Origin: Thermoleophilia bacterium
GTDB taxonomy: Bacteria > Actinomycetota > Thermoleophilia > Gaiellales > Gaiellaceae
Reading direction: 5' to 3'
Assembly (NCBI GenBank): GCA_023382435.1
Contig: JAHDVS010000007.1
Coordinates: 1 to 64,000, forward strand
DNA: 64,000 nt
Shown one piece after another: positions 3,930 to 20,398 of this stretch; position 1 is the first letter of the stretch, and every line of letters starts with the position of its first letter. The notes under the pieces are model-generated. The model had not been told where the DNA came from. It ran no database searches and worked only from the letters and a program-made list of their open reading frames with translations. The position numbers were made by a program, and so were the translations under genes.

Positions 3930-4862
3930 CTAGCGCGACCCGCGCACGTACGGGAGGCCGAGCGCCGCCGGAAGGTAGGCGCGCCGGCCGAAGAGGAGGA
4001 GCACGACGATCACGGCGAGGAACGGGAGCATGTTGACGACGTCGATCGGGACGTCGATCGACGCCACCTGGAGCGCCGTCTGGAGCTGGAGGGACATCCC
4101 GATCAGAAGCGCTCCGACGACGACCCAGAACGGCCGCGCGCGGGCCAGCATCGCGATCACGATCGCGATGAAGCCGGCGCCGTTCGTCATGAACGGCTCG
4201 AACGTGCCGGCGCCGACGATCGCGAGGTAGGCGCCGCCGAGGCCGCCGAGCGCTCCGGTCGCGAGCACGGCCCAGGTGCGGGTCGCGACGACCGAGACGC
4301 CGGCCGCGTCGAGCGCGGAAGGCTTGTCCCCCGCGGCGCGGAGATTCAGCCCCGCGTTCGTCGAGCGAAACAGCCACCAGGTGAAGATGACGAGGCCGAG
4401 CGTCAGATAGACGACGAGGTGCTGGCTGAAGACGCTGCGGCCGAGCACCGGGATCCCCGACAGCCCGGGGATCGTGACCAGCTCGACGGCGCCGAGCCGC
4501 GGACGTTCGGTCAGGATCGCCCCGTGCAGGAGGCTCGTCAGGCCCTCGGCCGCGAGCGTGAGCGCGATCCCGACCACGATCTGGTCGAGGCCGAGGCGTA
4601 CGCAGAGGACGGCCATGAACACGGCCACGAACATCCCGGCTCCGATCCCGGCCGCGAACCCGACCCACGTGAAGCCGGAGTAGAGGGCACCGCTGAAGCC
4701 GACGTAGCCGCCGAGCAGCATCATCCCCTCGAGCCCGATATTCAGCACCCCGGCCCGCTCGGAGATCGACTCGCCGAGCGCCGCGAGCAGAAGCGGCACG
4801 CCCGCCAGCAGGCCGCCGGCGACGAGCGCGGTCAGGAACGTCTCGGTCAGGACCTTGCTCAC
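3930..4862 (-). CDS. ABC transporter permease, BMP/nucleoside type (second permease)
   Basis: A 310-residue integral membrane protein with about eight to nine hydrophobic helices. ERAGVLNIGLEGMMLLGG is the hallmark of the YufQ/NupQ class of branched permeases found with BMP-family binding proteins. It should form the membrane channel with the permease encoded just upstream. The GTG start overlaps that gene's stop by four bases. The class is known to carry nucleosides, and in some bacteria riboflavin. Here I infer a B6 vitamer as substrate from the degradative genes around it. Confidence 0.85.
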   Translation of the reverse strand: MSKVLTETFLTALVAGGLLAGVPLLLAALGESISERAGVLNIGLEGMMLLGGYVGFSGALYSGFTWVGFAAGIGAGMFVAVFMAVLCVRLGLDQIVVGIALTLAAEGLTSLLHGAILTERPRLGAVELVTIPGLSGIPVLGRSVFSQHLVVYLTLGLVIFTWWLFRSTNAGLNLRAAGDKPSALDAAGVSVVATRTWAVLATGALGGLGGAYLAIVGAGTFEPFMTNGAGFIAIVIAMLARARPFWVVVGALLIGMSLQLQTALQVASIDVPIDVVNMLPFLAVIVVLLLFGRRAYLPAALGLPYVRGSR

Positions 4863-5995: not shown

Positions 5996-7614
5996 GCCGC
6001 CTGCCCCACCATCAGCTCGCCCACCCGCTGCGCCACACCGGGGCCACTCTCGACCACGCCCGCGAGCCGGCCGCGCGAGAGAACAGCGATCCGGTCGCAG
6101 AGGTCGACGAGCTCCTCGAGGTCGGTCGAGATCACGATCGCGCTGACACCCTGCTCGGCCTGCTCGCGGATCCGGGCCCGAACGGCCTTGATCGTCCGTA
6201 CGTCGAGACCGTACGTCGGTTTGCTGTAGATCACCGCGCGCGGCTCGAAGGCGAGCTCCCGCGCCAGCATGACTTTCTGGATGTTGCCGCCCGACAGGGT
6301 CGCAACCCGTGCGTCCACCCCCGGCGTACGCACGTCGAAACGCTCGACGAGCTCCCGCGCGGTCGCCTCGATCGACCGGCGCTGCGTCACGCCCCGCCGC
6401 CAGAACGGCGGCTCGCCGATCCGCTTCAGGACGAGGTTCAGAGCGACGCTCATGCTGCCGACGGTGCCCTCGCCGAGCCGGTCGTCGGTGACGTAGCGCA
6501 GGCCGAGCCGCTCGCGACGCGACACGCCGAGGGTCGAGATCGTGCGGCCCTCGAAGCGGACCTCACCGGCCGTCAACGGCCGCTGGCCCCCGATCGCCTC
6601 GGCCAGCTCCCGCTGGCCGTTGCCGTCCACGCCCGCGATCCCCATGATCTCGCCCGGCAACAGAGACAGCGAGATGTCGTGGATCCCGACCTGGCCCCGG
6701 TCTCCGGCCGCGGAGACGTGGATCAGCTCGAGCAGCGGGGCCTCCCCACGCCCGCGACGCGGCTCGTGACCCTCGACCCGCTCCTCCAGCTCGGCGACGT
6801 CGGCGACCTCCTTCGCCTCCTCCCCGAACATCAGCCGGACGATCTCCGCCTGGAGCTGCTCGTGCGAGCGGCCGCGCAGGTCGTCCGGGCCGAGCTCCCC
6901 GACGAGCCGCCCCTGTTTCAGGATCGAGACCCGGTCTCCCATCTCGGCGGCCTCGTGCAGCTTGTGGGTGATGAAGGCGACCGCGAGGCCGTGCTGCTTC
7001 AGCCCCCCGAGCACTTTCGCGAGCTCGGCGACACCCTGCGGGGTCAGCATCGACGTCGGCTCGTCGAGGATCAGCACGGACGAGCCGCGCCAGAGCGCCT
7101 TGACGATCTCGACCTGCTGCTGCTGGCCGAGCGCGAGCGTGCCCGTGACCGCGTCGGGGTCGATCTCGACCCCGAGCGTGCCCGCGAGCTCCGCCAGGCG
7201 CGCCCGCGCACCCCGGACGTCGAGACGCAGGCCGCCTCCGGCTCCCAGCATCAGGTTCTCGAGCACGGTCAGGGTCGGGATCAGCGTCGAATGCTGGTAG
7301 ACCATCCCGATCCCGAGCTCGAGCGCGCGACGCGGCGAGTCGATCTCGACCTCGCGGCCGTCGACCACGATGCGGCCCGCGTCGGGCCGGAGCATCCCCG
7401 AGAGCACGTTCATGAGCGTCGACTTGCCCGCCCCGTTCTCGCCGAGCAGGCAGTGCACCTCGCCGCGGAGCAGCGCGAGCGTGATGTCATCGTTCGCGAC
7501 CACGCCCGGGAACGCCTTCGTGATCCCGAGCAGGAGCACGGCGGCATCGCCGGCCTCCCGCGTCGGAGCCCGGGTCGTGGTCATCGGCTGGGTGCTGCCG
7601 TCGCTCTCGGTCAT
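5992..7614 (-). CDS. ABC transporter ATPase with two nucleotide-binding domains
   Basis: A 540-residue protein with two ABC domains in tandem, as in the RbsA/NupO family. Domain one has Walker A GENGAGKST at residues 58-66, a signature-like LALGQQQQVEIVKAL and Walker B VLILDEPTSM. Domain two has a degenerate Walker A, GVDGNGQRE, without the lysine, but a good LSGGNIQKVMLAREL signature. One functional and one weakened site is normal for this family. It powers the two permeases encoded directly downstream. A strong palindrome separates it from the binding-protein gene upstream. Confidence 0.9.
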   Translation of the reverse strand: MTESDGSTQPMTTTRAPTREAGDAAVLLLGITKAFPGVVANDDITLALLRGEVHCLLGENGAGKSTLMNVLSGMLRPDAGRIVVDGREVEIDSPRRALELGIGMVYQHSTLIPTLTVLENLMLGAGGGLRLDVRGARARLAELAGTLGVEIDPDAVTGTLALGQQQQVEIVKALWRGSSVLILDEPTSMLTPQGVAELAKVLGGLKQHGLAVAFITHKLHEAAEMGDRVSILKQGRLVGELGPDDLRGRSHEQLQAEIVRLMFGEEAKEVADVAELEERVEGHEPRRGRGEAPLLELIHVSAAGDRGQVGIHDISLSLLPGEIMGIAGVDGNGQRELAEAIGGQRPLTAGEVRFEGRTISTLGVSRRERLGLRYVTDDRLGEGTVGSMSVALNLVLKRIGEPPFWRRGVTQRRSIEATARELVERFDVRTPGVDARVATLSGGNIQKVMLARELAFEPRAVIYSKPTYGLDVRTIKAVRARIREQAEQGVSAIVISTDLEELVDLCDRIAVLSRGRLAGVVESGPGVAQRVGELMVGQAA

Positions 7615-7627
7615 CCGGGTCCACCCG

Positions 7628-7659
7628 CGCGGAGGGGCGCCGGCCGGCGCCCCTCCGCG
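7628..7659 (-). terminator. Perfect 32-base palindrome between binding-protein and ATPase genes
   Basis: Two 16-base arms, almost entirely G and C, abut with no spacer; in RNA the central bases would open as a loop. No U-run follows on the minus strand, so this is more likely an intercistronic stem that slows or partly stops transcription and protects the upstream message than a full terminator. Such stems commonly keep binding-protein output above that of the membrane parts. Confidence 0.6.
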
Positions 7660-7689
7660 TTCGGGCGAGGCTGGTCGTGACGAAGCCTA

Positions 7690-8856
7690 CTAGCCTCCGA
7701 TCAGCGCGTTCACGTCGTCGAGGGCCGGCGTCAGCGGGATCTCGATCGACCCGTCCGCGATGCCCGCGGCGGCCGTCTCGATCTCCGCCCAGACGTCGGC
7801 GGGGATGTGATCCGTCTGGAGCAGCGAGAGCCCGTTCGAGACGTTCAGGTCGTAGCCCTGGTTGCCGAACGTGCCCGCGGCGATATCGGCGAGCGCCTGC
7901 TCGAAGATCTGGGTGAAGTCCCAGAGCACCGAGGAGAGCAGAACGCCCTTCTCGTCGATCGAGCTCTTGTCACCGATCACGTCGATGAACCAGACCGTGT
8001 CCGCGCCCTCGGGCGGCGTTGCGGTCTCGACCGCCTGGAGCATCCCGAACGACGACCCGTCGCCCATCCCGAAGACCACGTCGGCGCCGCCCGCGATCAC
8101 GCTCTCGGTCACGCGCTTGCCGCCCGCCGCGTCGGCGTAGCCAGCCTGACCGATCTGGGTCAGGATCACCTTGACGTCCGGGTTGACGCTGCGGGCCCCG
8201 GCGACGAAGCCGCCGGCCTGCTTGTGCCAGTTCGTGTCGTCAGCCGACTCGACGATCCCGAGCGTGCCCGTCTTCGACATCTTCGCGGCGAGGATGCCGG
8301 CGAGGTACGCACCCTGCTGGCTCGACGTCGAGATGTCGGCGACGAGACCCGGCGTCGTGTTGTCCGGCTTGTCGTAGGTGATGACCGGGATCCCCGTCGC
8401 CTGCGCGAACTCGGGCGCGGCCGTGTTGTAGCCGCTCGCCTGGGCGATGATGAACTGGACGCCGTCGTCTGCGAGCTGGTTCAGGATCGGCGTCACGTCC
8501 TCGTAGCCGGCGCCGTCCGCGACGAGCAGCTCCGCCCCGATCGAGTCGGCCGCCGTCTGTGCGCCCTCGACGCCCTGCTGGTTCCAGCCGTAGTCGTTTG
8601 CCTTCTCGGGCGCGACCACGCCCATCACCGTGATCGCGGGCGCAGCCGGCTCCTCGGTGGTGGCCGGCGCCTCTTCCGTGGTCGCGGGCGCCTCTTCCGT
8701 GGTCGCGGGCGCCTCCTCGGTGGTCGCAGCCGGCGTCTCCGTCGTCGCGGGCGCGGTCTCGTCGTCGCCGCCGCACGCGGCGGCGAGACCGAGCAGCCCC
8801 ACCAGCGCGAGCAGCGCTCCGGCCCGCGCGATCGGCCCCAACAGTGTCCGTCTCAT
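7690..8856 (-). CDS. BMP-family substrate-binding lipoprotein of the ABC importer
   Basis: A 388-residue exported lipoprotein. The signal peptide ends in LGLAAACGG with the lipid-bearing cysteine at residue 28. A Thr/Glu/Ala/Pro-rich tether of about 35 residues follows, then a periplasmic-binding domain of the Bmp/PnrA type (YGWNQQGVEGAQTA, VADGAGYEDVTPILNQL, VDVVFGMGDGSSFGM-like segments). An AAGGAGGGG ribosome site lies a few bases before the ATG. BMP proteins bind nucleosides or riboflavin. In this locus the likely ligand is pyridoxal, pyridoxamine or pyridoxine, but that is inference from context. Confidence 0.85.
   Translation of the reverse strand: MRRTLLGPIARAGALLALVGLLGLAAACGGDDETAPATTETPAATTEEAPATTEEAPATTEEAPATTEEPAAPAITVMGVVAPEKANDYGWNQQGVEGAQTAADSIGAELLVADGAGYEDVTPILNQLADDGVQFIIAQASGYNTAAPEFAQATGIPVITYDKPDNTTPGLVADISTSSQQGAYLAGILAAKMSKTGTLGIVESADDTNWHKQAGGFVAGARSVNPDVKVILTQIGQAGYADAAGGKRVTESVIAGGADVVFGMGDGSSFGMLQAVETATPPEGADTVWFIDVIGDKSSIDEKGVLLSSVLWDFTQIFEQALADIAAGTFGNQGYDLNVSNGLSLLQTDHIPADVWAEIETAAAGIADGSIEIPLTPALDDVNALIGG
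8650..8740 (-). repeat. 21-base tandem repeats encoding the lipoprotein tether
   Basis: Three to four near-copies of a 21-base unit encode EAPATTE repeats just after the lipid-anchored cysteine. Copies differ at silent third positions, which shows the peptide, not only the DNA, has been kept. It is a flexible spacer across the cell wall. Confidence 0.7.
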
Positions 8857-9023
8857 GCAACCCCTCCTTCTCTCCTCACATAGCCGCCCCACCCCGGGGC
8901 GGGACACCCGACAGGGAGCTCGCGTGGTGGCCCCCAACAGCTTTGACGCTGGCCCCGCCGCATGTGTTGGCGCTGCCAGCGTCCCCTACGTCTCGCTCGA
9001 CTCCCCGATCGTGCCCTCACCTC
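8857..9023 (-). promoter_or_regulatory. Upstream region of the importer operon with an inverted repeat
   Basis: This 167-base gap separates the binding-protein gene from the amidohydrolase gene. It holds nine-base inverted arms (GACGCTGGC at 8945-8953 and its complement at 8975-8983). It also holds CCAACAG near 8934 and TGTTGG near 8965, half-sites that partly resemble the operator before the GntR gene. A promoter for the importer is likely here, but no convincing -35/-10 pair could be assigned. Confidence 0.35.
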
Positions 9024-9776
9024 CTAGCCTCGAACCGGCCCGACCGGCGCGCTCGCGCGCTCGTCGCCGAAGAAGAGCAGGCGCCCGTTCAAACTCAGCA
9101 CGCGCTCGACGAGATCGGGCTCGAGGCCCGATAGCTCGACTTTTCGGATCTCCACCTCCGGGTGGTGAAAAGGAGCGTCCGACCCGTAGAGCACCCGGTT
9201 CGGCCCCGCGCGGCGCACCGCCTCCCGGATCTTCGTGTGCATCGGCATCCCGGACGTCTCCAGGTACACGTGCGGGTTGCGCTCCGCGACGTCGATCGAC
9301 GCGTTGATGTAGACGACGTTCCCGTGGCCCATGTGACCGAGCACGACGCGCAGCGTCGGGAACGAGCGGGCGAGCTCCTCGATCGACCAGGGCAGCGTGA
9401 AGATCGGATGCCCGCAGTGGACGAGCACGGGCAGTCCCCGCCCCGCGAGCAGCGCGGCAAGCGGGTGCACGATCGGGTCGTTCGGGTGGTAGCCGTCGAG
9501 GAGCGGGTGCAGCTTCACGCCCAGGAAGCGTGGGTGATCGAGCAGCTCCTCGGCCTGTCCGAGGAAGCCCGGGAGCCGCGGGTTCGCCCAGACGAGCCCG
9601 TACGCGCCGGGGACGTCCTCGACGACGCCCCGCACGTACTCGTTGTCGGGATGGAAGACGAGGCACGAGTCGATGCGGTTCGCCGCCATCAGCTCAACCA
9701 GGCCGTCGCGGTCGAGCCGCACGTCGAACAGCGGGAACTCGCCGACGTGCATGTGGGCGTCGAAGATCGCGCTCAC
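9024..9776 (-). CDS. Amidohydrolase-2 family metal-dependent hydrolase
   Basis: A 250-residue TIM-barrel protein. The opening FDAHMHVG gives the metal-binding H8 and H10, GVKLHPLLDGYHP and VLVHCGHP the middle ligands, and LYGSDAPFHHPE the late aspartate. The family (COG2159) contains hydrolases and non-oxidative decarboxylases such as the ACMSD group. It is transcribed away from the GntR gene from a shared 97-base intergenic region, so it probably belongs to the same regulon. A role on a ring-opened or carboxylated pyridine intermediate would fit, but the substrate is unknown. Confidence 0.75.
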   Translation of the reverse strand: MSAIFDAHMHVGEFPLFDVRLDRDGLVELMAANRIDSCLVFHPDNEYVRGVVEDVPGAYGLVWANPRLPGFLGQAEELLDHPRFLGVKLHPLLDGYHPNDPIVHPLAALLAGRGLPVLVHCGHPIFTLPWSIEELARSFPTLRVVLGHMGHGNVVYINASIDVAERNPHVYLETSGMPMHTKIREAVRRAGPNRVLYGSDAPFHHPEVEIRKVELSGLEPDLVERVLSLNGRLLFFGDERASAPVGPVRG

Positions 9777-9873: not shown

Positions 9874-10629
9874 GTGAGGCGAGATGCAATGGCCGCAGGA
9901 GCCGCCGCCGAGATCGCTGCCGGTGACGGCTCGCGCTCGGGAAAGCTCGAGAACCTGACCCTCTGGGAGCGGGTTCACGGGTTCCTCCGCCAGGAGATCC
10001 TCTCGAACCGCCTGCCCCCGGGGACGGAGCTCGCCGAGGTCGCGCTCGCGGAGTCCCTCGGAGTCAGCCGCGGCCCGGTCCGGGAAGCGCTCGGGCGCCT
10101 CGCCACCGAGGGGCTCGTGACCGTGCGACCCCGGCGCGGGGCGGTCGTCTCCTCGCTGTCGAAGCAGGAGTTCCTGGAGGCCTACCAGGTGCGGGAGGCG
10201 CTCGAGATGCTCGCGATCCGCCTCGCGGTGCCGCGGACGACACCCGAGCTGCTCGAGCGGCTCCAGGGTCTGATCGCGAAGATGCAGGACTGCGCCGGCC
10301 GCGATGATGTCGACGGGTTCTTCGAGCTGAACGCGCAGTTCCACCGGGCGTTCGTGGACGCATCCGGCAACGGTCGGCTGATGGAGCTCTACCGCCAACT
10401 CGTCGAGCAGCTCGGCCGCTACCGGGGCAGCTCGCTCGCGCTGCGCGGCAGCCTGAAGCGCTCGATCGCCGAGCACCGAACGATTCTGCGGGCGGTCGCG
10501 TCCGGGGACCCCGACCGGGCCGCTCATCTGCTCTCCGAGCACATCCGGGTGCCGCAGCGCCGCCTCGAGGCCGGTGACGACGAGCTGTTCGCCCTGCGCA
10601 CGATTCCGCCGAAGGGAGAGGTTCGATGA
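9874..10629 (+). CDS. GntR-family regulator, FCD type
   Basis: A 251-residue regulator. Residues about 29-92 form the winged helix (LPPGTELAEVALAESLGVSRGP, then REALGRLATEGLV). The all-helical FCD effector domain follows (QVREALEMLAIRLA, NAQFHRAFVDASGN, EHRTILRAVASGD), with the usual Asp/His metal-binding positions. The GTG start fits the promoter, which would give a nearly leaderless message; an ATG at 9889 behind a weak GAGG is the alternative. It lies at the centre of the divergent locus and probably responds to a B6 catabolite. It is not of the PdxR/MocR type that controls B6 synthesis. Confidence 0.85.
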   Translation: MRRDAMAAGAAAEIAAGDGSRSGKLENLTLWERVHGFLRQEILSNRLPPGTELAEVALAESLGVSRGPVREALGRLATEGLVTVRPRRGAVVSSLSKQEFLEAYQVREALEMLAIRLAVPRTTPELLERLQGLIAKMQDCAGRDDVDGFFELNAQFHRAFVDASGNGRLMELYRQLVEQLGRYRGSSLALRGSLKRSIAEHRTILRAVASGDPDRAAHLLSEHIRVPQRRLEAGDDELFALRTIPPKGEVR

Positions 10630-10648: not shown

Positions 10649-11692
10649 ATGAGCGGCAGCGACCGCCCGCTCGAGTTCGGCGTCAACCTGAACAATCGGG
10701 AGCCGCTGATCGCCCCCGACTACAGCCTGGGCATGCTGCTCGAGCTGTCCGGTCGCGTCGAGGAGCTGGGCTTCGACTCGGTCTGGGTCGGCGACAGCCT
10801 CTTCTCGAAGCCGCGCTACGAGCCGATCGCGCTGCTCGCGGCGATCTCTCAGCGCACGTCGCGCGTGCGGCTCGGGACCGCCTGCATGGTCTCCTCGACG
10901 CGCAACCCGCTCTACCTCGCGCTCGAATGGGCAACGCTCGACCATCTCTGCGACGGGCGCACGATCCTCGGCACAGGAATCGGCAACCCCGAGCAGGGGG
11001 TGGAGCGCGAGTTCGCCGCGCTCGGCCTCGAGTTCAAGCGCCGCGCGAAGATCTTCGAGGAGGGCCTGCGGGCGATCCGCGCGCTCTGGACGGAGGGAAA
11101 GGTCACGCTCGACGGCGAGTTCTTCCAGTACGACAACGTCTCGTTCTACTCGGGGACGGAGATGGCGCCGCTCGGGCCGGTGCAGAAGCCGCCGCCGATC
11201 TGGGTCGTCTCCAACCCCCGCCTCGTGCGCGAGCTGCCGCCCGACGAGGCCCGCCGGCGCATGGAGCCGGCCTGCCGGCGGATCGTCGAGCTCGGCGACG
11301 GCTGGATGACCTGCTGCCGCGCCCAGCATCCGGGCGAGCTCGGCGAGCAGCTCGCCGTGCTTGCCGAGGTCGCCGCCGCCCACGGCCGCGACTGGAGCGA
11401 CTACACGGTCTCCTACCAGGTGACGATGAACATCGGCGACTCCGAGGAGGAGGCGCGGCGCGCGTTCGACCGGTACATCTCGATGTACTACCCGGAGCTC
11501 TCCCGGGCGATGGATCTCTCGAACTGGGGCCCGGTCGGGACGCCCGAGCAGATCGCGGAGTGGCTGAGGACGTTCGCCGGCGCGGGCGTCCACCATTTCA
11601 TCTGCCGCTTCGGCGCAATCGACCAGTTCGAGCAGGTCGAACGCTTCGCCAAAGAGATCCTGCCCCTGTTCAACGCCGAGCGAGTGAGGTGA
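10649..11692 (+). CDS. Luciferase-like (LLM class) flavin-dependent oxidoreductase
   Basis: A 347-residue TIM-barrel protein: FDSVWVGDSLFSKPRYEP, RLGTACMVSSTRNPLYLA and LDHLCDGRTILGTGIGNPEQ are standard LLM-family segments, and a TP-E-IAEWLRTFAGAG helix closes the fold. The family uses FMN or F420 for monooxygenation, including ring-opening chemistry in RutA. It starts 19 bases after the GntR gene in the same direction, so it belongs to the operon. It is one candidate for the ring-cleaving or decarboxylating hydroxylation step that the missing MHPCO would otherwise do. Cofactor choice cannot be read with certainty. Confidence 0.8.
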   Translation: MSGSDRPLEFGVNLNNREPLIAPDYSLGMLLELSGRVEELGFDSVWVGDSLFSKPRYEPIALLAAISQRTSRVRLGTACMVSSTRNPLYLALEWATLDHLCDGRTILGTGIGNPEQGVEREFAALGLEFKRRAKIFEEGLRAIRALWTEGKVTLDGEFFQYDNVSFYSGTEMAPLGPVQKPPPIWVVSNPRLVRELPPDEARRRMEPACRRIVELGDGWMTCCRAQHPGELGEQLAVLAEVAAAHGRDWSDYTVSYQVTMNIGDSEEEARRAFDRYISMYYPELSRAMDLSNWGPVGTPEQIAEWLRTFAGAGVHHFICRFGAIDQFEQVERFAKEILPLFNAERVR

Positions 11693-11697
11693 GCACG

Positions 11698-12705
11698 ATG
11701 GGATCCACAGCGGAGAAGCTGCTCGAGGACGCGGCGCTCGTCGTCGACGTCTGCATGTCGGTCGAGCAGGACGACGTTGTCACGATCATCACCGACGACG
11801 CGCACGCGGAGCACGCAGCCGCGGTCGCCCGGGTGGTGGTCGAGCGGGGCGGCTGGCCCGTGATCATGAACAACGAGACCCAGGTCGCCCGCGGCCTCGC
11901 GGACGTCCGCTTCCCGATGGCGCCGCCGTCGAATCTCCACCGCGCCATGGTCGGCTCCGACGAGGTGATCATCATCACGAACCTCGAGTGGGCAAACCGC
12001 TTCGCGCACGTGTCAGCGGTCAAGGAGACCTGCGCCGCCAACGGCAAGATCGCCTCCGTCGAGGAGGGGATGGGCGGCTGGAACCTGACGGTCGAGCACA
12101 TCAGGGAGGCGACACGGCGCGCCAAGGACGCGATCGCCGCGCTCGAGGGCAAGCGGCACGTGCGCGTCACGACCGCTCGCGGCACCGACTTCACCGTCTC
12201 GATCGAGGGGCGGCCCGCGCTCGAGGTGACGCCGGTCAAGGAGCGCGGCCAGATGATGGGCCCCGTACCGCTCTGGGCGGAGGTGGCGTTCGCGGCCGTC
12301 GAGGACTTCACGCACGGCACCGCGGTCGTGGACGGCGTGATGCTCGGCATCGGCCTGCCCGGACAGGTGCAGGAGCCGATCCGCTGGACGCTCGAGGGCG
12401 GTCGCTGCGTCGCGATCGAGGGCGGCGAGGAGGCGAAGCGCCTGCGCGAGGCGATCGCCGGAGTCGAGAACGCCGACGTCGTCGGCGAGTTCGCGTTCGG
12501 AACGAGCGAGAAGGCCCCCTTCGGCTCCCCGTCCGAGAAGGGGAGGATCGGCACCGTCCACCTCGCGCTCGGCGACAACCACAACGCCTACCCGGGCGGC
12601 CTCAACTCGAGCTCGCTCCACCTCGACGGGGTGTTCCTCGACGCGACCATGCAGATCGTCGACGACGGCACCTACATCCTCAGGGACGGCGCGTGGGTCC
12701 TGTGA
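11698..12705 (+). CDS. M29-family metalloprotein, NicX (2,5-dihydroxypyridine dioxygenase)-like
   Basis: A 335-residue protein of the aminopeptidase-T/M29 fold. The C-terminal block VHLALGDNHNAYPGGLNSSS followed by LHLDG carries an H-x-D metal pair (H308 and D310). The peptidase family and the ring-opening dioxygenase NicX share this fold and a late H-x-D pair. In NicX the iron cleaves 2,5-dihydroxypyridine next to the ring nitrogen. Given the pyridine-degrading neighbours, a dioxygenase role is more likely than peptide cleavage, but the sequence alone does not decide it. The start lies just after the LLM gene, and its stop overlaps the cupin gene by GTGA. Confidence 0.65.
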   Translation: MGSTAEKLLEDAALVVDVCMSVEQDDVVTIITDDAHAEHAAAVARVVVERGGWPVIMNNETQVARGLADVRFPMAPPSNLHRAMVGSDEVIIITNLEWANRFAHVSAVKETCAANGKIASVEEGMGGWNLTVEHIREATRRAKDAIAALEGKRHVRVTTARGTDFTVSIEGRPALEVTPVKERGQMMGPVPLWAEVAFAAVEDFTHGTAVVDGVMLGIGLPGQVQEPIRWTLEGGRCVAIEGGEEAKRLREAIAGVENADVVGEFAFGTSEKAPFGSPSEKGRIGTVHLALGDNHNAYPGGLNSSSLHLDGVFLDATMQIVDDGTYILRDGAWVL

Positions 12706-13067
12706 GCCCGGTCACGGTCGTCAACGCCGGCGATGTCGACCCGCTCGAGCTTCCCGGTGGGAGCTGGAGCCGGATGCTCGTCACGACGGGGCGAGTCGAA
12801 GGCAACACCGCATCGCTCGGCACCTCGGTGTTCACGCCCGGCACCGTGCTCGGCGACGTGCGGCACGAGGCGGAGGAGGTCGCATACGTCGTCTCGGGCA
12901 GCGGCGAGCTGCGGCTCGACGACGGGAACAGCGTGCGATTCGCCGCGGGCGACGCGCTCTTCATCCCGCCCGGGGTCTGGCACGCCGTGGCCAACACCGG
13001 CTCCGACGACGTGGTGATGGTGTTCGGCTTCGCCCACCCCGAGTACCCGCCGACCGAGCGGCGCTAG
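12702..13067 (+). CDS. Single-domain cupin protein
   Basis: A 121-residue beta-barrel protein. RHEAEEVAYVVSGSGELRL is the first cupin motif with one His and a Glu, and GDALFIPPGVWHAVANTG the second with its His. The first motif lacks the usual second histidine, so the metal site may be incomplete or may use other ligands. Small cupins act as isomerases, dioxygenases or binding proteins. The GTG start overlaps the stop of the M29 gene, which ties it to that step, perhaps acting on the ring-opened product. Function is not assigned. Confidence 0.7.
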   Translation: MSPVTVVNAGDVDPLELPGGSWSRMLVTTGRVEGNTASLGTSVFTPGTVLGDVRHEAEEVAYVVSGSGELRLDDGNSVRFAAGDALFIPPGVWHAVANTGSDDVVMVFGFAHPEYPPTERR

Positions 13068-13068
13068 C

Positions 13069-13779
13069 GTGCTCGCCATGCAGTCCCTGCAGGAGCAGGT
13101 CGCCTGGGCCTGCCGGATCCTCGCTCTCGAGGGCTACACCGACCTCACGCTCGGCCACGTCAGCGCCCGGGCGCGCGGAAGCGCGTCCGTCCAGATCAAG
13201 CGGCGCGGCGTCGCGCTCGACGAGGTCGAGCTGGAAGACGTGATCTCGCTCGACCTCGAGAGCGGCGAGGGCTTCGACTCGCCCGAGATGCATCTCGAGG
13301 CCGTCCTGCACACCGAGGTCTACCGCGCCCGCCCGGACGTCGGCGCCGTCGTGCACGGCCACCCGCCCTACGCGACCGCTCTCTCGGCGAGCCGGGAGCC
13401 GCTCGAGCTCTTGACGCACGACGCCGTGCTGTTCGCCGACGGGCTCGGTGTGTTCGAGGAGACGCCCGAGCTGATCACGGGCCGGGAGATGGGCCAGGCC
13501 GTGGCCAGGGCGCTCGGCTCCGGCCGCGCGGTGCTCTTGCGAAACCACGGGGTGCTCGTCGTCGGCCAGGACGTCGCCTGGGCAGTGCTGACGGCCGTGA
13601 CGCTCGAGCGGGCGGTGCGCCTCCAGGCGATCGCGGCCTCGCTCGGCCCGCTCGCGCCGATTCACCGGGAGACCGCCGCGCGGATGCTCCCGGAGAAGTA
13701 CAACAACGGCCTGGTCGATGAGTACTGGGCGGCCTGGATCCGCCGGCTGCAACGCGGCGGGGCGGGGCTCGCGAGCTGA
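13069..13779 (+). CDS. Class II aldolase family, probable HMPDC 4-decarboxylase
   Basis: A 236-residue class II aldolase/adducin-fold protein. E73 in SPEMHLEAVLH and the metal ligands H96, H98 (VVHGHPPY) and H160 (LLRNHGVLVV) are all present. In Mesorhizobium B6 degradation the 3-hydroxy-2-methylpyridine-4,5-dicarboxylate decarboxylase belongs to exactly this family. With FHMPC dehydrogenase, pyridoxolactonase and pyridoxal dehydrogenase encoded just downstream, this is the best reading. Fuculose- or ribulose-phosphate aldolase is the alternative. Start is GTG, or ATG three codons later. The stop overlaps the next gene as TGATG. Confidence 0.75.
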   Translation: MLAMQSLQEQVAWACRILALEGYTDLTLGHVSARARGSASVQIKRRGVALDEVELEDVISLDLESGEGFDSPEMHLEAVLHTEVYRARPDVGAVVHGHPPYATALSASREPLELLTHDAVLFADGLGVFEETPELITGREMGQAVARALGSGRAVLLRNHGVLVVGQDVAWAVLTAVTLERAVRLQAIAASLGPLAPIHRETAARMLPEKYNNGLVDEYWAAWIRRLQRGGAGLAS

Positions 13780-14243
13780 TGGAGATCGAGCTGATCGTCA
13801 ACGGGAGGCCGGTCGCGGCACGTCTCGAGCCGCAGCAGCTCCTGCTCGACTTCCTGCGCGACGATCTCGGGCTGACCGGCACGAAGCGCTCCTGCGACGT
13901 CCAGGTCTGCGGCGCCTGCACCGTCCTCCTCGACGGGCTGCCCGTCAGTTCCTGCTGCACGCTTGCCGTCGAGGCGCACGGCCGCGACGTGCTCACGATC
14001 GAGGGCCTCGCGGAGCGGGACGAGTTCGCCGCGATCGAGCGGGCGTTCGCCCGGCACGCCGCGGTCCAGTGCGGCTACTGCACGCCCGGGCTCGTGCTGA
14101 CGATCCACGCCCTGCTCGCCGAGGGCGCGCTCGCCACCGAGGACGGGATCCGGCGCAACCTGGCAGGGAACCTCTGCCGCTGCACCGGCTACAAGGCGAT
14201 CGTCGAGGCCGTCCGCGAGCTGGCGGGGACGGGCAACCCGTGA
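13779..14243 (+). CDS. Molybdenum hydroxylase 2Fe-2S (small) subunit
   Basis: A 154-residue two-cluster protein. C39, C44, C47 and C59 form the plant-ferredoxin-type cluster (SCDVQVCGACTVLLDG). C98, C101, C133 and C135 form the second helical cluster (QCGYCTPG and CRCTGY). It carries electrons from the molybdenum site to the flavin subunit. It overlaps both neighbours by one and four bases, so it is made with the large subunit. Length is normal for the family. Confidence 0.92.
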   Translation: MEIELIVNGRPVAARLEPQQLLLDFLRDDLGLTGTKRSCDVQVCGACTVLLDGLPVSSCCTLAVEAHGRDVLTIEGLAERDEFAAIERAFARHAAVQCGYCTPGLVLTIHALLAEGALATEDGIRRNLAGNLCRCTGYKAIVEAVRELAGTGNP

Positions 14244-16489
14244 GCACCAAGGTCGAGACCGCAACGCGGGCAGGTACCGCCGTCGGGCTGCCGCTCGAGC
14301 GGGTCGACGCCGGCGAGAAGCTGCGGGGCCAGGCCCGCTTCACCGGCGACCTCGACGTCGGGCGGATGCTCCACGGCAAGGTCATGCGCTCGCCCCTCCC
14401 CCACGCCCGCATCGTCTCCCTCGACGCCTCGCGGGCCGAGCGGCTTGCCGGCGTCGTCTGCGTCCTCACGGGACGCGACCTGCTCGACTTGCCGAGCCCC
14501 CTCTACGGCCATGCGCTGAAGGACCGCCCGATCGTCGCGATCGACCGCGTCCGCTTCGCGGGCGAGCCGGTGGCGGTCGTGGCGGCGGAGGACGAGGCGA
14601 CCGCCGAGGCCGCACTCGCGCTCATCGACGTCGAGTACGAGGAGCTGCCCGCGGCGGTGACGATCGAGGAGGCGCTTGCGCCGGACGCCCCGCTGCTCCA
14701 CGAGGGCCCGCAGCGCGCCGGCCTCTTCCACGGCCTCGGCGAGCTCGGCGAGCGCGAGGGGAACGTCTGCTACCGCTACCACATCGACCGCGGCGAGATC
14801 GAGGCCGCGTTCGCGCACGCGGACGTCGTGGTCGAGGGCGAGTACACGTTCCCGGCCGTCTACCAGTACGCCCTCGAGACGCACACGGTGATCGCGGAGC
14901 ACCGTCCCGACGAGATCACCGTCTGGGCCTCCTGCCAGCACCCGTTTCTCGTGCGGGCGGAGCTCGCCGACCTGTTCGGGCTGCCGCTGCACCGGGTGCG
15001 GCTGATCGTGCCCTACCTCGGCGGCGGCTTCGGCTCGAAGTCGTACACGAAGATGGAGCCGATCACGGTCGCCGTCGCCCGCAAGGCCGGCCGCCCGGTG
15101 CGGATCCGAAACCGCGTCGACGAGGCGATGCTGACGACGCGCCGCCACGGCCTGCGCTGTCGCATGCGCACGTCTGCGACCGCCGAGGGGCGCCTGCTCG
15201 GCCGCGAGGTCGAGCTCTGGCTCGACACGGGCGCGTACGCGGACAACGGCCCGCGCGTGACGGCGACCGGCGGCGACGCCGCGCCCGGGCCCTACCGCTG
15301 GGCCGCCTACCGCGTCGACGCCGCCTGCGTCTACACGAACACCTCCCCTTCCGGGTCGTACCGGGCGTTCGGCGCCACCCACGTGCAGTGGATCGGCGAG
15401 TCGCAGGTCGACGAGGTGGCGCGCCGCTGCGGCCTCGACCCGCTCGAGCTGCGCCGGCAGAACCTCTGCGTGACAGGCGAGGAGCTGCGCGCCGGCGGCA
15501 AGCCACTCGACGCCGACCTCATCGGCGACGTGGAGAAGGTCGCCGAGGCGATCGGCTGGGGCAGGCCGAGACAGCGCTGGCGCGGCCGCGGCCTCTCGGT
15601 CGGGCTGCTCGCGGCCGGCGCCCACCCGGTGTCGAACGCGACCGTGCGGCTCGAGTCGGACGGGATCGCCGTCGTCCTCGTCGGCACGACCGAGAAAGGG
15701 CAGGGGGCGCGGACCGTGATGGCGCAGATCGCGGCCGAGGAGCTCGGGCTGCCGCTCGAGCGCGTCCGCGTGCAGGGCGCCGACACCCGCTACACCCCGT
15801 ACGACCGCTCGACCGGCGCGAGCCGCTCGACCACGCTCGCGGGCCTCGCCGTCCAGAGGGCCGCCCGCGACGTGCGCGACCAACTCGCCCGGATCGCCGG
15901 CAGCGACCCCGACCCCGACGAGTACGTCGCGCTGATGCGCCGCCACTTCGGCTTCGCGGGCGGGGAGCTGATCGGCGTCGGCGAGGTCCGCCCCCGGGGG
16001 ACGGGGTCGTACGCGGAAGGGCCCGTGTTCTGGGAGGTCTGCGTCGGCGCGGCGGAGGTCGAGATCGACCCCGAGACGGGCGTCGTGACCGTGCTGCGCA
16101 CGGCGACCGTGGCCGACGTCGGCCGCGCGATCAACCCGAAGCTGGTCGAGCGCCAGGACGAGGGCGCAACGCTCCAGGGGATCGGCAACGCGCTGTTCGA
16201 GGAGATGCTCTGGATCGACGGGCAGCTCGCGAACGGCGACCTGCTCGAGTACCGCATCCCGACCCTCCGGGACATGCCCGCCGAGATGACGTGCATCGTC
16301 GTCGAGAACGGCGACGGCCCCGGCCCCTACGGGGCCAAGGGATGCGGCGAGGGCGCCCTGGCCGCGATCCCGGCGGCGATCGTGAACGCCCTGGCCGACG
16401 CCGGGGTGCCGATGACCGAGCTGCCGCTGACGCCGGAGCGCGTCTGGCGGCGCATCAGAGAACTCGAGAAGGAGGCGACAGGTGGCTGA
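14240..16489 (+). CDS. Molybdenum hydroxylase molybdopterin-binding (large) subunit
   Basis: A 749-residue protein of the xanthine dehydrogenase/CO dehydrogenase large-subunit family. GGGFGSKSYTKMEP and SYRAFGATHVQW are cofactor-binding segments, and GAKGCGEGAL holds the catalytic glutamate (about E704). The enzyme would bind molybdopterin cytosine dinucleotide and insert a water-derived hydroxyl next to a ring nitrogen. Enzymes of this family start nicotinate, quinoline and purine breakdown. The motif around residues 255-265 is not the AYRGAGR form of CO dehydrogenase, so it is not a CO oxidiser. I infer a methyl-hydroxypyridine carboxylate as substrate; xanthine or an aldehyde remain possible. 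Confidence 0.85.
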   Translation: MSTKVETATRAGTAVGLPLERVDAGEKLRGQARFTGDLDVGRMLHGKVMRSPLPHARIVSLDASRAERLAGVVCVLTGRDLLDLPSPLYGHALKDRPIVAIDRVRFAGEPVAVVAAEDEATAEAALALIDVEYEELPAAVTIEEALAPDAPLLHEGPQRAGLFHGLGELGEREGNVCYRYHIDRGEIEAAFAHADVVVEGEYTFPAVYQYALETHTVIAEHRPDEITVWASCQHPFLVRAELADLFGLPLHRVRLIVPYLGGGFGSKSYTKMEPITVAVARKAGRPVRIRNRVDEAMLTTRRHGLRCRMRTSATAEGRLLGREVELWLDTGAYADNGPRVTATGGDAAPGPYRWAAYRVDAACVYTNTSPSGSYRAFGATHVQWIGESQVDEVARRCGLDPLELRRQNLCVTGEELRAGGKPLDADLIGDVEKVAEAIGWGRPRQRWRGRGLSVGLLAAGAHPVSNATVRLESDGIAVVLVGTTEKGQGARTVMAQIAAEELGLPLERVRVQGADTRYTPYDRSTGASRSTTLAGLAVQRAARDVRDQLARIAGSDPDPDEYVALMRRHFGFAGGELIGVGEVRPRGTGSYAEGPVFWEVCVGAAEVEIDPETGVVTVLRTATVADVGRAINPKLVERQDEGATLQGIGNALFEEMLWIDGQLANGDLLEYRIPTLRDMPAEMTCIVVENGDGPGPYGAKGCGEGALAAIPAAIVNALADAGVPMTELPLTPERVWRRIRELEKEATGG

Positions 16490-17402
16490 GCTGAAGCGTG
16501 CAGCCGTGATCGGCACCGGCACGATGGGCCCCGGCATGGGGGCGGTGCTCGCCCGGGCCGGACTCGTGACGGCGCTCTACGACGTGAGCGCCGAGCAGCT
16601 CGAGCGGGCCAAGGAAGGCGCCAAGCTCGCGCAGGGGGTGCTCGACCGGCTCGAGACGCCCTCCGTCGCCGGCGGCTCGCTGCGCTTCGAGACCGACCTC
16701 GCGGCCGCGCTCGCCGGCGCCGGGATCGTGATCGAGGCCGTCCCCGAGCGGCTCGAGCTGAAGCACGAGGTGTTCCGGGCATTCGAGCAACACGTCGCGG
16801 CCGACGCGATCCTCGCGTCGAACACATCGGGGATCCCGATCACGAAGATCGCCGAGGCCTGCTCGAGCCCGGAGCGCGTCGTCGGCATGCACTGGTCGAA
16901 CCCGCCGCACCTGATCCCGATGATCGAGGTGATCCCGGGGGAGCGCACCGCGCAGAGCATCGTCGACGCGACCTGCGAGCTCGTGCGGGGGGTCGGCTAC
17001 CACCCGGTCGTCGAGCGCGAGGTGCCCGGCTTCGTCGAGAACCGGATCCTCTACGCGATCATGCGCGAGTGCCTCGACCTCGTCGACCGCGGCATCATCG
17101 ACCCCGAGGGGCTCGACCTCAACGTCAGGTGGGGGATCGGCTACAAGCTCGCCGTGATCGGCCCGATGGAGCTGCTCGACATGGCCGGCCTCGACATCTA
17201 CAACGCGGTCGGCTCGTACCTGAACGGGGATCTCTCCACCTCGGGCGAGGTCTCCTCGACGATCCGCGAGCTGATCGACCAGGGCCGCCTCGGCATGAAG
17301 ACCGGCGGCGGCATCTACGACTACACGCCGGAGCAGGTCACCGAGCTGCGCGCGCGGCGGGCTGCGAAGCTCGTCGCCGTGCGCAAGGCGCTCGAGACCT
17401 AG
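16482..17402 (+). CDS. 3-hydroxyacyl-CoA dehydrogenase family, probable FHMPC dehydrogenase
   Basis: A 306-residue protein: Rossmann motif GTGTMG at residues 11-16, catalytic-type H137 in GMHWSNPPHLIPMIEV, and a C-terminal helical domain (VPGFVENRILYAIMREC, GPMELLDMAGLDIY). The WSNPPH form replaces the FFNP of true hydroxyacyl-CoA enzymes, and it matches what I recall of the Mesorhizobium 5-formyl-3-hydroxy-2-methylpyridine-4-carboxylate dehydrogenase. That enzyme oxidises the aldehyde to the dicarboxylate used by the decarboxylase. AAGGAGG precedes the GTG start, which lies inside the end of the molybdenum subunit gene. Confidence 0.78.
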   Translation: MAELKRAAVIGTGTMGPGMGAVLARAGLVTALYDVSAEQLERAKEGAKLAQGVLDRLETPSVAGGSLRFETDLAAALAGAGIVIEAVPERLELKHEVFRAFEQHVAADAILASNTSGIPITKIAEACSSPERVVGMHWSNPPHLIPMIEVIPGERTAQSIVDATCELVRGVGYHPVVEREVPGFVENRILYAIMRECLDLVDRGIIDPEGLDLNVRWGIGYKLAVIGPMELLDMAGLDIYNAVGSYLNGDLSTSGEVSSTIRELIDQGRLGMKTGGGIYDYTPEQVTELRARRAAKLVAVRKALET

Positions 17403-17419: not shown

Positions 17420-18175
17420 GTGAAGATCTGGTTCCTCGACAACGGCTCGATCGTGATCGACCACGCCCAACTCCAGTGGAACATCGGCGGCGGCACGGCC
17501 GTTCGGATCCCCTCCTACGGGCTCCTGATCGAGCACGACGAGGGCCTGTTCCTGTTCGATACCGGCTTCGATCTCGAGCACACGAACCGCGTGCTCCCCT
17601 TCGAGCTGCCCGAGCAGACGCCGGAGCAGACGATCCCGGCCCAGCTCGAGCTGTGCGGCTTCCGCCCGGCGGACGTGACGGCGCTCGTCAACTCGCACCT
17701 GCACTTCGACCACGTCGGCGGCAACAAGCACTTCGCCGGCACCGGGATCAGGAACCTCGTCCACGCACGCGAGATCGCGCAGGCGCGCAACTGCGAGCCG
17801 TTCGAGCACCTCGGTTACTCCGACCGCACCTGGGACCACGAGGGCGCGAGCCTCGTTCCCGTCAGCGGGGATTTCGAGCTCGCGACGGGCCTCACGCTGT
17901 ACGAGACGCCGGGGCACACCGTCGGCCATTACTCGCTGCTCGCCGAGCCGGCCTCGGGGGCGAAGCCGATGCTGTTCGCGTTCGACGTCGTCTACAACCA
18001 GGAGGCCTACGGCAAAGGCATCCAGCCGGGCTTCCACATCGATCCGGTGGCCGGGGTGCGCTCGATCCGTCGGATCAAGGCGCTTGCCGAGGGGCACGGC
18101 GCCGACGTGTACTTCTCCCACGACATGGACGCGTGGCACACCTACCGCCACGCTCCCGACTGCTACGACGTGTAA
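17420..18175 (+). CDS. 4-pyridoxolactonase (metallo-beta-lactamase fold)
   Basis: A 251-residue MBL-fold hydrolase with NSHLHFDHVGGNKHF (H93, H95, D97, H98), a TPGHTVGHYS second histidine block and a late SHDMDAWHTYR. The segments VLPFELPEQ, NCEPFEHLGYSDRTW, FHIDPVAGVRSIRR and SHDMD agree closely with what I recall of Mesorhizobium 4-pyridoxolactonase, well beyond general lactonase similarity. The reaction opens 4-pyridoxolactone to 4-pyridoxic acid with zinc. A GGGAGGGGG ribosome site lies a few bases before the GTG start. It is preceded by the FHMPC dehydrogenase gene and followed by pyridoxal dehydrogenase. Confidence 0.85.
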   Translation: MKIWFLDNGSIVIDHAQLQWNIGGGTAVRIPSYGLLIEHDEGLFLFDTGFDLEHTNRVLPFELPEQTPEQTIPAQLELCGFRPADVTALVNSHLHFDHVGGNKHFAGTGIRNLVHAREIAQARNCEPFEHLGYSDRTWDHEGASLVPVSGDFELATGLTLYETPGHTVGHYSLLAEPASGAKPMLFAFDVVYNQEAYGKGIQPGFHIDPVAGVRSIRRIKALAEGHGADVYFSHDMDAWHTYRHAPDCYDV

Positions 18176-18234: not shown

Positions 18235-18972
18235 ATGGGCAAGATGGAAGGAAGGGTCGCGATCGTCACGGGCGCCGCGCAGGGCATCGGGCGCGCGGTC
18301 GCGCGGAAGCTGGCCGCGGAGGGCGCGACGGTCGTCTGCGCCGACCAGAACGGCGACGGTGCCGGGCAGGCCGCGGCGGAGCTCCCGGGCGCGACCGCGA
18401 CCCGGGCGGACGTCTCGCGGCCCGACGACGTGCAGCGTCTCGTCGACGAGACGCTGACCGCGCACGGCAAGGTGGACGCGCTTGCGCACGTCGCGGCGGT
18501 CGTCCCGTTCACGGCGTGGGACGACATCGACTTCGAGGAGTGGCGGCGGATCATGTCCGTCAACCTCGACGGGACGTATCTCGTGAACCGCGCCGTCTAC
18601 GGGCCCATGCGGGAGGCCGGGTACGGGCGGATCGTCAACATCTGCTCGAACGTCGTCCTCGCCGGCACGCCGAACCTCGCCCACTATGTCGCCTCGAAGG
18701 GCGGTGTGCTCGCGTTCACGCGGGCGCTCGCACGCGAGATCGGCAAGCACGGCATCACCGTCAACTCGGTCGCGCCCGGCCTGACGGCGTCGGAGGGTGC
18801 GCTCGCGAGCCCGCACAAGGAGGCGTTCGAGTTCGTGCAGATGCTCCAGTGCATCCCGCGCCGCGGCGAGCCCTCCGACATCGCGCCGTCGGTCGCGTTC
18901 CTGCTCTCCGAGGAGGCCGGCTGGGTCACCGGGCAGATGCTCGTGGCCGACGCCGGGATGACCCATAACTGA
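18235..18972 (+). CDS. Pyridoxal 4-dehydrogenase (SDR family)
   Basis: A 245-residue short-chain dehydrogenase with TGAAQGIG at residues 12-19 and the catalytic S138, Y151 and K155. VPFTAWDDIDFEEWRRIM, LAGTPNLAHYVASKGGV and SPHKEAFEFVQMLQ agree with my recollection of the NAD-dependent pyridoxal 4-dehydrogenase of Mesorhizobium, not only with generic SDRs. It oxidises the hemiacetal form of pyridoxal to 4-pyridoxolactone, the substrate of the lactonase encoded just upstream. GAGGAGG precedes the ATG. The stop overlaps the following gene as TGATG. Confidence 0.85.
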   Translation: MGKMEGRVAIVTGAAQGIGRAVARKLAAEGATVVCADQNGDGAGQAAAELPGATATRADVSRPDDVQRLVDETLTAHGKVDALAHVAAVVPFTAWDDIDFEEWRRIMSVNLDGTYLVNRAVYGPMREAGYGRIVNICSNVVLAGTPNLAHYVASKGGVLAFTRALAREIGKHGITVNSVAPGLTASEGALASPHKEAFEFVQMLQCIPRRGEPSDIAPSVAFLLSEEAGWVTGQMLVADAGMTHN

Positions 18973-19370
18973 TGGCCGCGATCGACGTCACCCGCGCGGG
19001 CGCGATCCTCGCCGTCGCCGACGCCGAGCGCTCGCTCGCGTTCTACCGCGATCTGCTCGGCTTCCGGGTCGACGCGACGTTCGACGACCCGCCGTACGCG
19101 ATCCTCTCGCTCGCTGGCACACGGCTGTCGCTCGCCGAGCAGGGCCACAGGTCGCCGGACCACGACGTGGTGCTGGCAGCGCCCGCCGACCCGACCCGGC
19201 CGGCCGCCATGCTCGTGCTCGAGGTGGCCGACGCCCGCGCCGCCCACGCGGCTCTCGAGGCCGCCGGCGCCGACTTCGTCGCTCCGCTCTTCTCGCCGCC
19301 CTGGGGCGGCCACCGGTTCTTCGTCCGCGACCCGGATGGCTTCCTGGTCGAGCTCGAGGAGCTCGCGTGA
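18972..19370 (+). CDS. VOC-superfamily (glyoxalase/dioxygenase-fold) protein
   Basis: A 132-residue single vicinal-oxygen-chelate unit: ILAVADAERSLAFYRDLLGF opens it and FFVRDPDGFLVELEELA closes it with the metal-site glutamate. The family includes glyoxalases, extradiol dioxygenases and epimerases. It is coupled to the pyridoxal dehydrogenase gene by TGATG and to the alcohol dehydrogenase gene by a four-base overlap. It could handle a later step of B6 breakdown or a reactive aldehyde. No specific substrate can be given. Confidence 0.75.
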   Translation: MAAIDVTRAGAILAVADAERSLAFYRDLLGFRVDATFDDPPYAILSLAGTRLSLAEQGHRSPDHDVVLAAPADPTRPAAMLVLEVADARAAHAALEAAGADFVAPLFSPPWGGHRFFVRDPDGFLVELEELA

Positions 19371-20398
19371 GAGCCGTCGTTCTGCACGGGCCCGGCGACG
19401 TCCGCGTTGACGAGGTCGACGGTCCCACCCTGCTCGAGCCGGGGGACGCGATCGTCGAGGTGACCGCGACCGCGATCTGCGGCGCCGACCTGTTCCCCTA
19501 CCACGGGCTAACGCCCGGATTCGAGCCCGGCACCGTGCTCGGGCACGAGTTCGTCGGGATCGTCCGCGAGGTCGGGCCCGCGGTCGAGCGGATCCTGCCC
19601 GGCCAGCGCGTCGTCAACGGGTCGATGACCCGGGACGGGACGTGCGCGTACTGCCGGCTCGGCCTCCCGACCCAGTGCGAGGGCCGCTCGCTGTTCGGTT
19701 ACTCGGGCGTCTATCCGAGGCTCGACGGCGGGCAGGCCGAGCTGGTGCGGATCCCGCGCGCCGACCTCGTGCTCGAGCCGCTCCCCGACTCCGTCTCCGA
19801 CGAGGCCGGGGTCTTCGTCGCGGACATCCTCCCCACCGGCTGGGGCGCCGTCGTGCGTGGCGGTGTCGAGGCGGGCGACACGGTCTGCGTCGTCGGCTGC
19901 GGGCCGGTCGGGCTGATGGCGATCCTCGCCGCCGTCCACCACGGCGCCCGCGTGCTCGCGGTGGACGGGATCGAGACCCGGCGCGCGCTCGCCGCCTCGC
20001 TCGGCGCGGAGGCGCTCGACCCGGAGCAGGCGGCGGACGGGGTCGCGCAGGCAACGGGCGGGCTCGGCGCCGATGTCGTCATCGAGGCGGCCGGCTCGCA
20101 GGAAGCGCTCGACGCGGCGCTCCGCCTCGCCCGCGGCCGCGGCACCGTCTCGGTCGTGGGCGCGCACTTCGAGCCCGACTACCCGCTCGACAACCTGCAC
20201 ATGTTCGAGCACGAGCTCACGCTCAGGTTCACGATCGGCGACCCGACGAACGACCGGGTGCGGCTGCTCGAACTGCTCGCCGCCGGCGCGATCGACCCGG
20301 CGGCGATCGTCACGCACCGGCTCCCGCTCGCCGACGCGGCCGAGGCCTACCGCCTGTTCGACGCCCGCGAGGCGACGAAAGTTGTCCTCACCCCCTGA
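19367..20398 (+). CDS. Zinc-type medium-chain alcohol dehydrogenase
   Basis: A 343-residue MDR protein. ICGADLF has the catalytic-zinc cysteine, GHEFVG the His-Glu pair, and VVGCGPVGLMA the NAD loop. The structural-zinc loop CAYCRLGLPTQC has three of the usual four cysteines. In the B6 pathway an alcohol at C5 of 4-pyridoxate must be oxidised to the aldehyde. Mesorhizobium uses a membrane flavoprotein for that, and no such gene is in this cluster, so this enzyme is the best candidate. That is inference; pyridoxine oxidation is another possibility. Confidence 0.8.
   Translation: MRAVVLHGPGDVRVDEVDGPTLLEPGDAIVEVTATAICGADLFPYHGLTPGFEPGTVLGHEFVGIVREVGPAVERILPGQRVVNGSMTRDGTCAYCRLGLPTQCEGRSLFGYSGVYPRLDGGQAELVRIPRADLVLEPLPDSVSDEAGVFVADILPTGWGAVVRGGVEAGDTVCVVGCGPVGLMAILAAVHHGARVLAVDGIETRRALAASLGAEALDPEQAADGVAQATGGLGADVVIEAAGSQEALDAALRLARGRGTVSVVGAHFEPDYPLDNLHMFEHELTLRFTIGDPTNDRVRLLELLAAGAIDPAAIVTHRLPLADAAEAYRLFDAREATKVVLTP

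Follow-up and report, generated by a model that had tools for sequence, protein, structure and literature searches.

A conserved gene module in place of the known ring-opening step at a vitamin B6 degradation locus from Thermoleophilia

How might the ring of vitamin B6 be opened at a degradation locus that carries no gene for MHPCO, the flavin monooxygenase that opens it in the known pathway? The question is raised by a 64,000-nucleotide stretch of contig JAHDVS010000007.1 from a Thermoleophilia bacterium (hereafter the window), in which two molybdenum hydroxylase subunits, an M29-family protein and a luciferase-like (LLM) oxidoreductase are encoded between positions 10649, where the LLM gene starts, and 16489, where the gene for the molybdopterin (Mo) subunit ends. 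An earlier note on this DNA had proposed from these genes a new route with a NicX-like dioxygenase in place of MHPCO. The gene set that it listed is borne out by coordinates and by Pfam and NCBIfam matches; a small cupin and a class II aldolase inside the same span, and an FAD subunit outside it (1847–2713, minus strand), were absent from its list. What stands of the proposal is the replacement of MHPCO by a gene module that recurs across phyla, and what is not supported, on the evidence of the M29 metal ligands, is the NicX-like dioxygenase.

The locus encodes uptake and degradation of vitamin B6 (pyridoxamine/pyridoxal). Curated NCBIfam models recognize four of its products above cut-off, two of them enzymes (pyridoxal 4-dehydrogenase and 4-pyridoxolactonase) and two of them parts of a putative B6 transporter (its ATPase and its binding protein; Table 1). 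As judged from the predicted proteins, the upper half of the pathway is that of the known pathway I, with an aminotransferase, pyridoxal 4-dehydrogenase, 4-pyridoxolactonase, 5-formyl-3-hydroxy-2-methylpyridine-4-carboxylate (FHMPC) dehydrogenase and a decarboxylase-type class II aldolase. NF042925 is by far the best match of the FHMPC dehydrogenase yet falls short of its cut-off, the best PDB match being the FHMPC dehydrogenase structure 4om8 (1.1e-102); NF046070 is likewise the best match of the aminotransferase and lies below its cut-off. The class II aldolase has three conserved histidines (H96, H98 and H160) and is by its context a candidate for the 3-hydroxy-2-methylpyridine-4,5-dicarboxylate (HMPDC) decarboxylase. 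The MDR dehydrogenase encoded downstream could possibly serve this clade as the 4-pyridoxate (CH2OH) dehydrogenase.

Neither the locus nor the genome, a 79-contig assembly that is 96.3% complete, encodes an MHPCO-like protein or any full-length protein of PF01494, the family to which MHPCO belongs. Only partial PF01494 matches were found in the genome, the best of them (57 bits) within a protein named by eye as geranylgeranyl-reductase-like and another in one named by eye as L-aspartate oxidase-like. The lack of MHPCO that the earlier note had read from the locus therefore extends to the genome, and an MHPCO gene elsewhere, which the note had said would count against its proposal if linked to AAMS hydrolase, did not turn up; the absence is likely though not absolute, given the 79 contigs. 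AAMS hydrolase was not found either, and among the operon genes neither a maleamate amidase nor a maleate isomerase was seen. The loci sampled include no positive-control MHPCO locus, and plasmid records contained no pyridoxolactonase at 1e-40 and hence supplied none. That the canonical ring-opening half (MHPCO and AAMS hydrolase) is here replaced by a conserved module is well supported.

A scan for pyridoxolactonase yielded 79 loci, and those carrying the M29 protein or the Mo subunit were taken as module loci (24 counted, with L038 and L053 being one contig). The co-occurrence with pyridoxolactonase that the earlier note had suggested surveying is found in 23 loci besides the window, mostly with the gene order kept, and the grouping is therefore no accident. 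Cupin, M29 protein, aldolase, 2Fe-2S subunit, Mo subunit and LLM protein occur together unless the contig ends, with the two exceptions of L062 and L100, and the hosts, as their records are titled, include Thermoleophilia, Solirubrobacterales, Nitriliruptoraceae, Ilumatobacteraceae, Dormiibacterota and Thermomicrobiales, with Acidimicrobiia-like members among them. Many of the records are metagenome-assembled genomes, in which mis-binning is possible. Orthologues of the M29, LLM and Mo proteins form groups set apart from other homologues: within the window's order the M29 orthologues are 78–84% identical and the next best protein 35%, with none between; Mo-subunit orthologues are 65–71% identical against at most 41% for others; and LLM orthologues are 63–74% identical over 16 aligned loci. 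Two module loci labelled Bifidobacterium breve (L071) and Rhodospirillales (L055) carry genes that resemble actinobacterial relatives, and are probably mislabelled or mis-binned metagenome-assembled genomes.

The metal site of the M29 protein bears most directly on the chemistry. The protein matches PF02073 at 41.7 bits (cut-off 27) and its AlphaFold2 model, built with 20 orthologues, has a pLDDT of 93.7. The iron of NicX is bound by H265, S302, H318 and D320 (PMC7910607), and M29 aminopeptidases are marked by the motif EEHYHD (PMC7023490). Aligned to the NicX ligands are E264, A290, H308 and D310, so that H265 and S302 are replaced; the late H-x-D pair pointed out in the earlier note is H308/D310, ligands of NicX that are common to the M29 clan as well. 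The whole motif is present as E195, E264, H288, Y298, H308 and D310, and each of these residues is the same in all 20 orthologues aligned. Its metal ligands recur in the aminopeptidase paralogues of the window genome and in almost every distant relative, and in NicX proteins the equivalents of E195, E264 and H288 are lost. Because EEHYHD is invariant and the NicX residues H265 and S302 are absent, the protein is, going by alignment and model, most likely a metallohydrolase on a NicX-like scaffold, and its aligned ligands place it outside the NicX dioxygenase family, although an unusual or altered oxygenase is conceivable. The comparison of predicted structures put forward earlier cuts both ways, with NicX a closer match than the aminopeptidases in overall fold and length and two iron ligands gone; a full aminopeptidase-type metal site, the structural half of what the earlier note had named as telling against it, is present.

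Proteins of ∼330 residues annotated as 'aminopeptidase', 29–39% identical to the window protein and mostly with the same metal residues, were also seen in catabolic loci with tricarballylate genes and TRAP/TTT transporters (L132, L133, L134, L135 and L137); in the Salipiger relative (L135) R-x-E replaces H-x-D. Relatives of this type suggest a broad, unassigned family of catabolic metallohydrolases. The neighbourhoods of the distant relatives hold tricarboxylate and other catabolic genes, and no common theme there fixes the reaction.

The molybdenum enzyme has the features of the xanthine oxidase family, with Mo, 2Fe-2S and FAD subunits and a catalytic glutamate, E704, that is invariant in an alignment of 10 sequences. 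The divergently encoded FAD subunit shares mostly 42–53% identity with the FAD subunits of other loci whose genes lie in the operon or close to it; as ∼10 loci have an FAD-subunit gene within the operon or adjoining it, the window protein is the natural third subunit of the hydroxylase. From the chemistry of the family, the block at C2 and the context, C6 of 3-hydroxy-2-methylpyridine-5-carboxylate is the likely site of attack. Hydroxylation beside the ring nitrogen, as envisaged in the earlier note, has a precedent in the alpha-hydroxylation of 3-hydroxypyridine to 2,5-dihydroxypyridine in Agrobacterium DW-1 (PMC6525221).

For the LLM protein the evidence leans towards dependence on F420: its closest families are F420-dependent, the best NCBIfam match being TIGR03619 (F420_Rv2161c; 135 bits, below the cut-off of 167). 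RutA is among its distant relatives (22 bits; TM score 0.73). An F420 ligase is encoded in 15 of 20 module genomes, that of the window included; CofD (PF01933) was discarded as a marker since it is unspecific and also matches in E. coli, and the ligase was used instead. A CofH-type F420 biosynthesis protein is encoded next to the FAD-subunit gene (6–1022, plus strand; TIGR03551 409 bits, cut-off 374), an adjacency that was set aside as a functional link because it is not conserved in other loci.

With the B6 context, the absence of MHPCO, the conservation of the module and the M29 site computed, the best explanation, which we hold with modest confidence, is a B6 locus whose lower half runs from the molybdenum hydroxylase through dearomatization by the LLM protein and hydrolysis by the M29 protein to the cupin. 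The hydroxylase would add oxygen at C6, a site proposed because of its family chemistry and the block at C2, to give a 2-pyridone-type lactam with the second hydroxyl para to the first. The LLM protein would then dearomatize the lactam, probably by an F420H2-type reduction and otherwise by flavin oxygenation, the M29 metallohydrolase would hydrolyze the ring amide or N-acyl bond thus formed, and the cupin would work on the ring-opened product. The hydrolytic site of the M29 protein and the F420 dependence of the LLM protein's nearest families are our reasons for favoring dearomatization followed by amide hydrolysis. We infer all of these reactions and their order, and more than one of the enzymes could open the ring; the N-acetylmaleamate-type products of the earlier proposal are pure inference. 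More tentative is a wholly oxygenase-free opening, with a lactam made from water, F420-dependent reduction by the LLM protein and lactam hydrolysis by the M29 protein. If that were true, NicX would be an oxygenase offshoot of a small catabolic metallohydrolase family.

Oxygen could instead open the ring after hydroxylation at C6, through the LLM protein as a RutA-like flavin monooxygenase or the cupin as a ring dioxygenase, leaving the M29 protein to hydrolyze the N-acyl product in the role of AAMS hydrolase. We regard this, the main rival, as possible but rather unlikely. It would accommodate the hydrolase site of the M29 protein and the distant kinship of the LLM protein to RutA; the hydroxylated product would be para-dihydroxy and gentisate-like, and a 2-His-1-Glu set (H55, E59 and H94) is invariant among 12 cupin orthologues. 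The cupin, however, lacks the three-histidine motif of gentisate-type dioxygenases and matches that family weakly (8.8e-6), no homologue of a flavin reductase partner was detected in the module loci with the one probe used, and the closest families of the LLM protein are F420 enzymes. A direct cut of 3,6-dihydroxy-2-methylpyridine-5-carboxylate by the M29 protein, acting as a NicX-like Fe(II) dioxygenase, seems very unlikely, although the substrate would fit the 2,5-dihydroxypyridine pattern and a profile search with the M29 protein also reaches NicX (0.0012). The replacement of H265 and S302 by E264 and A290 argues against it, as do the invariant E195, E264 and H288 of a dinuclear M29 site that NicX has lost and the relatives with the same site in loci without recognizable N-heterocycle genes, such as those adjoining tricarballylate genes. 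Finally, the molybdenum hydroxylase, LLM protein, M29 protein and cupin might act on a side chain or on some other substrate while an unrecognized enzyme elsewhere opens the ring. One module genome lacks the Mo subunit, another lacks both it and the LLM protein, and the reactions are assigned indirectly; but the set sits in the B6 operon of nearly every complete locus in several phyla, no other ring-opening candidate is common to the loci, and this account is to our mind improbable.

Several observations nonetheless weigh against the sequence from molybdenum hydroxylase to cupin that we prefer. The nearest structure to the M29 model in Foldseek is NicX (7cn3; TM scores 0.78/0.75, E 2e-22), ahead of PepS, AmpS and AmpT (0.63–0.71). 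Among the structural relatives of the LLM protein, flavin and F420 enzymes are not told apart by Foldseek, and two module genomes (G522 and G524), possibly incomplete or mis-binned, lack both F420 markers. The assignment of the aldolase as HMPDC decarboxylase is a candidate and not proven, as the Mlr6791 structure 2z7b (1.4e-19) is only its fourth-ranked match, and no gene common to all loci was identified for the step from 4-pyridoxate to the aldehyde. The L062 genome has the module without a Mo subunit, there or elsewhere, and L100 (Chloroflexi) keeps the M29 protein and cupin with two AOR-family oxidoreductases in place of LLM and Mo-subunit orthologues; the Mo subunit and LLM protein are therefore dispensable or replaced in these cases. 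In L062 (8298–9973) the 2Fe-2S and Mo subunits are cleanly gone from between the aldolase and FHMPC dehydrogenase genes, and the related L063 genome has a Mo subunit. In L100 (241–8283) the AOR-family proteins flank the M29 protein and cupin and an alanine dehydrogenase adjoins the pyridoxolactonase; no pyridoxal dehydrogenase orthologue is present at that locus and no aldolase is nearby.

A second variant appears at 13 other pyridoxolactonase loci, mostly of Rhodospirillales, which encode a gentisate-1,2-dioxygenase-like bicupin (2d40, 4e-46), an LVIVD protein and usually RidA and GST. The gene lists inspected for these loci showed no MHPCO and no module, and no locus carries both variants. 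The bicupin set (L068 at 667–5062, L067, L072, L077, L084, L086, L090, L094, L156 and L157; partial in L079, L081 and L087) adjoins FHMPC dehydrogenase and pyridoxolactonase genes, mostly without an aldolase and without a molybdenum hydroxylase. Were the 4,5-dicarboxylate cut between C3 and C4, in the manner of a salicylate dioxygenase, the product would be a pyruvate imine of the kind on which RidA acts, and a third route is thus possible.

The remaining genes of the locus are listed in Table 1. Neighboring genes of the plus-strand arm overlap or lie at most 60 bases apart from the LLM gene through the MDR gene, and for this reason they probably form a single transcription unit. The Amidohydro_2 protein beside the importer might be a decarboxylase or hydrolase of some later step.

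Table 1. Genes of the B6 locus, with their positions in the window and the matches on which their names rest.
Feature	Position	Strand	Basis
FAD subunit of molybdenum hydroxylase, divergent arm	1847..2713	-	PF00941 match at 2192-2704; start uncertain
Pyridoxamine-pyruvate aminotransferase-like	2713..3903	-	NF046070 452.7 bits (cut-off 600)
BMP-type ABC importer (two permeases, ATPase, binding protein), putative B6 transporter	3930..8937	-	NF047927 423.5 bits (cut-off 400); NF047930 742.3 bits (cut-off 670)
Amidohydro_2 protein beside B6 importer	9024..9776	-	Kept in a few related loci
GntR-family regulator, first gene of plus arm	9874..10629	+	Assigned from translation; position kept in related loci
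LLM (luciferase-like/F420 family) oxidoreductase, 347 aa	10649..11692	+	PF00296 5.5e-49
M29-family metallohydrolase-like protein, 335 aa	11698..12705	+	PF02073 8.8e-11
Small cupin	12702..13067	+	PF07883 (cupin_2) 5.8e-18
Class II aldolase/decarboxylase-type protein	13069..13779	+	PF00596 (Aldolase_II) 1.2e-41
2Fe-2S subunit, molybdenum hydroxylase	13779..14243	+	XdhC/glyceraldehyde DH gamma-type NCBIfam, best 1.4e-53; Cys motifs in sequence
Molybdopterin (Mo) subunit, xanthine oxidase family	14240..16489	+	PF02738, PF20256, PF01315
FHMPC 5-dehydrogenase-like	16482..17402	+	NF042925 435 bits (cut-off 500)
4-Pyridoxolactonase	17420..18175	+	NF047925 330 bits (cut-off 325); 3aj3 1.3e-74
Pyridoxal 4-dehydrogenase, SDR type	18235..18972	+	NF047923 367 bits (cut-off 325)
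Glyoxalase/VOC-family protein	18972..19370	+	PF00903 5.1e-19; found in subset of loci
Zn-type MDR alcohol dehydrogenase	19367..20398	+	NCBIfam MDR matches, all below cut-off; found in subset of loci

Among cofactors, only the catabolism of B6, NAD and riboflavin is said to be well characterized (PMC12746152), and no open-access publication describing this module was found; the evidence points to an undescribed means of opening the B6 ring. A second ring-opening module shared by uncultured bacteria of soil and water from several phyla would make the textbook route one of several, would assign functions to M29, LLM and cupin families that have none, and would bear on the removal of B6 in soils and sediments. 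The finding on the M29 protein also touches on how NicX arose, a protein for which a DALI search gave no obvious homologue over its full length (PMC7910607).

Set beside known systems, the proposed first step resembles the 3-hydroxypyridine route of Agrobacterium DW-1 in placing alpha-hydroxylation, attributed to molybdenum enzymes in general, at the start; there, however, an Fe(II) dioxygenase cuts the ring, and none was recognized in the window locus (PMC6525221). Pathway I of Mesorhizobium loti and Pseudomonas MA-1 shares with the locus pyridoxal 4-dehydrogenase and 4-pyridoxolactonase and, as far as the matches go, FHMPC dehydrogenase, an aminotransferase and a decarboxylase-type aldolase, whereas MHPCO and AAMS hydrolase give way here to the molybdenum hydroxylase, LLM protein, M29 protein and cupin, and a 4-pyridoxate dehydrogenase was not identified. 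The M29 protein is like NicX, the 2,5-dihydroxypyridine 5,6-dioxygenase (7cn3, 7cup), in fold, length and H-x-D pair, and differs from it in having the complete M29 motif, in lacking equivalents of H265 and S302 and in an identity of only 18%. With the M29 aminopeptidases (AmpT, AmpS and PepS) it has all of the EEHYHD residues in common, but it is ∼70–80 residues shorter than the solved enzymes, matches their fold less well than that of NicX and is encoded in a catabolic operon. The reductive nicotinate route of Eubacterium barkeri uses other enzyme families than the window module and would follow the same logic as the one proposed here: hydroxylation by a molybdenum enzyme to a lactam, reduction, and hydrolytic opening of the ring.

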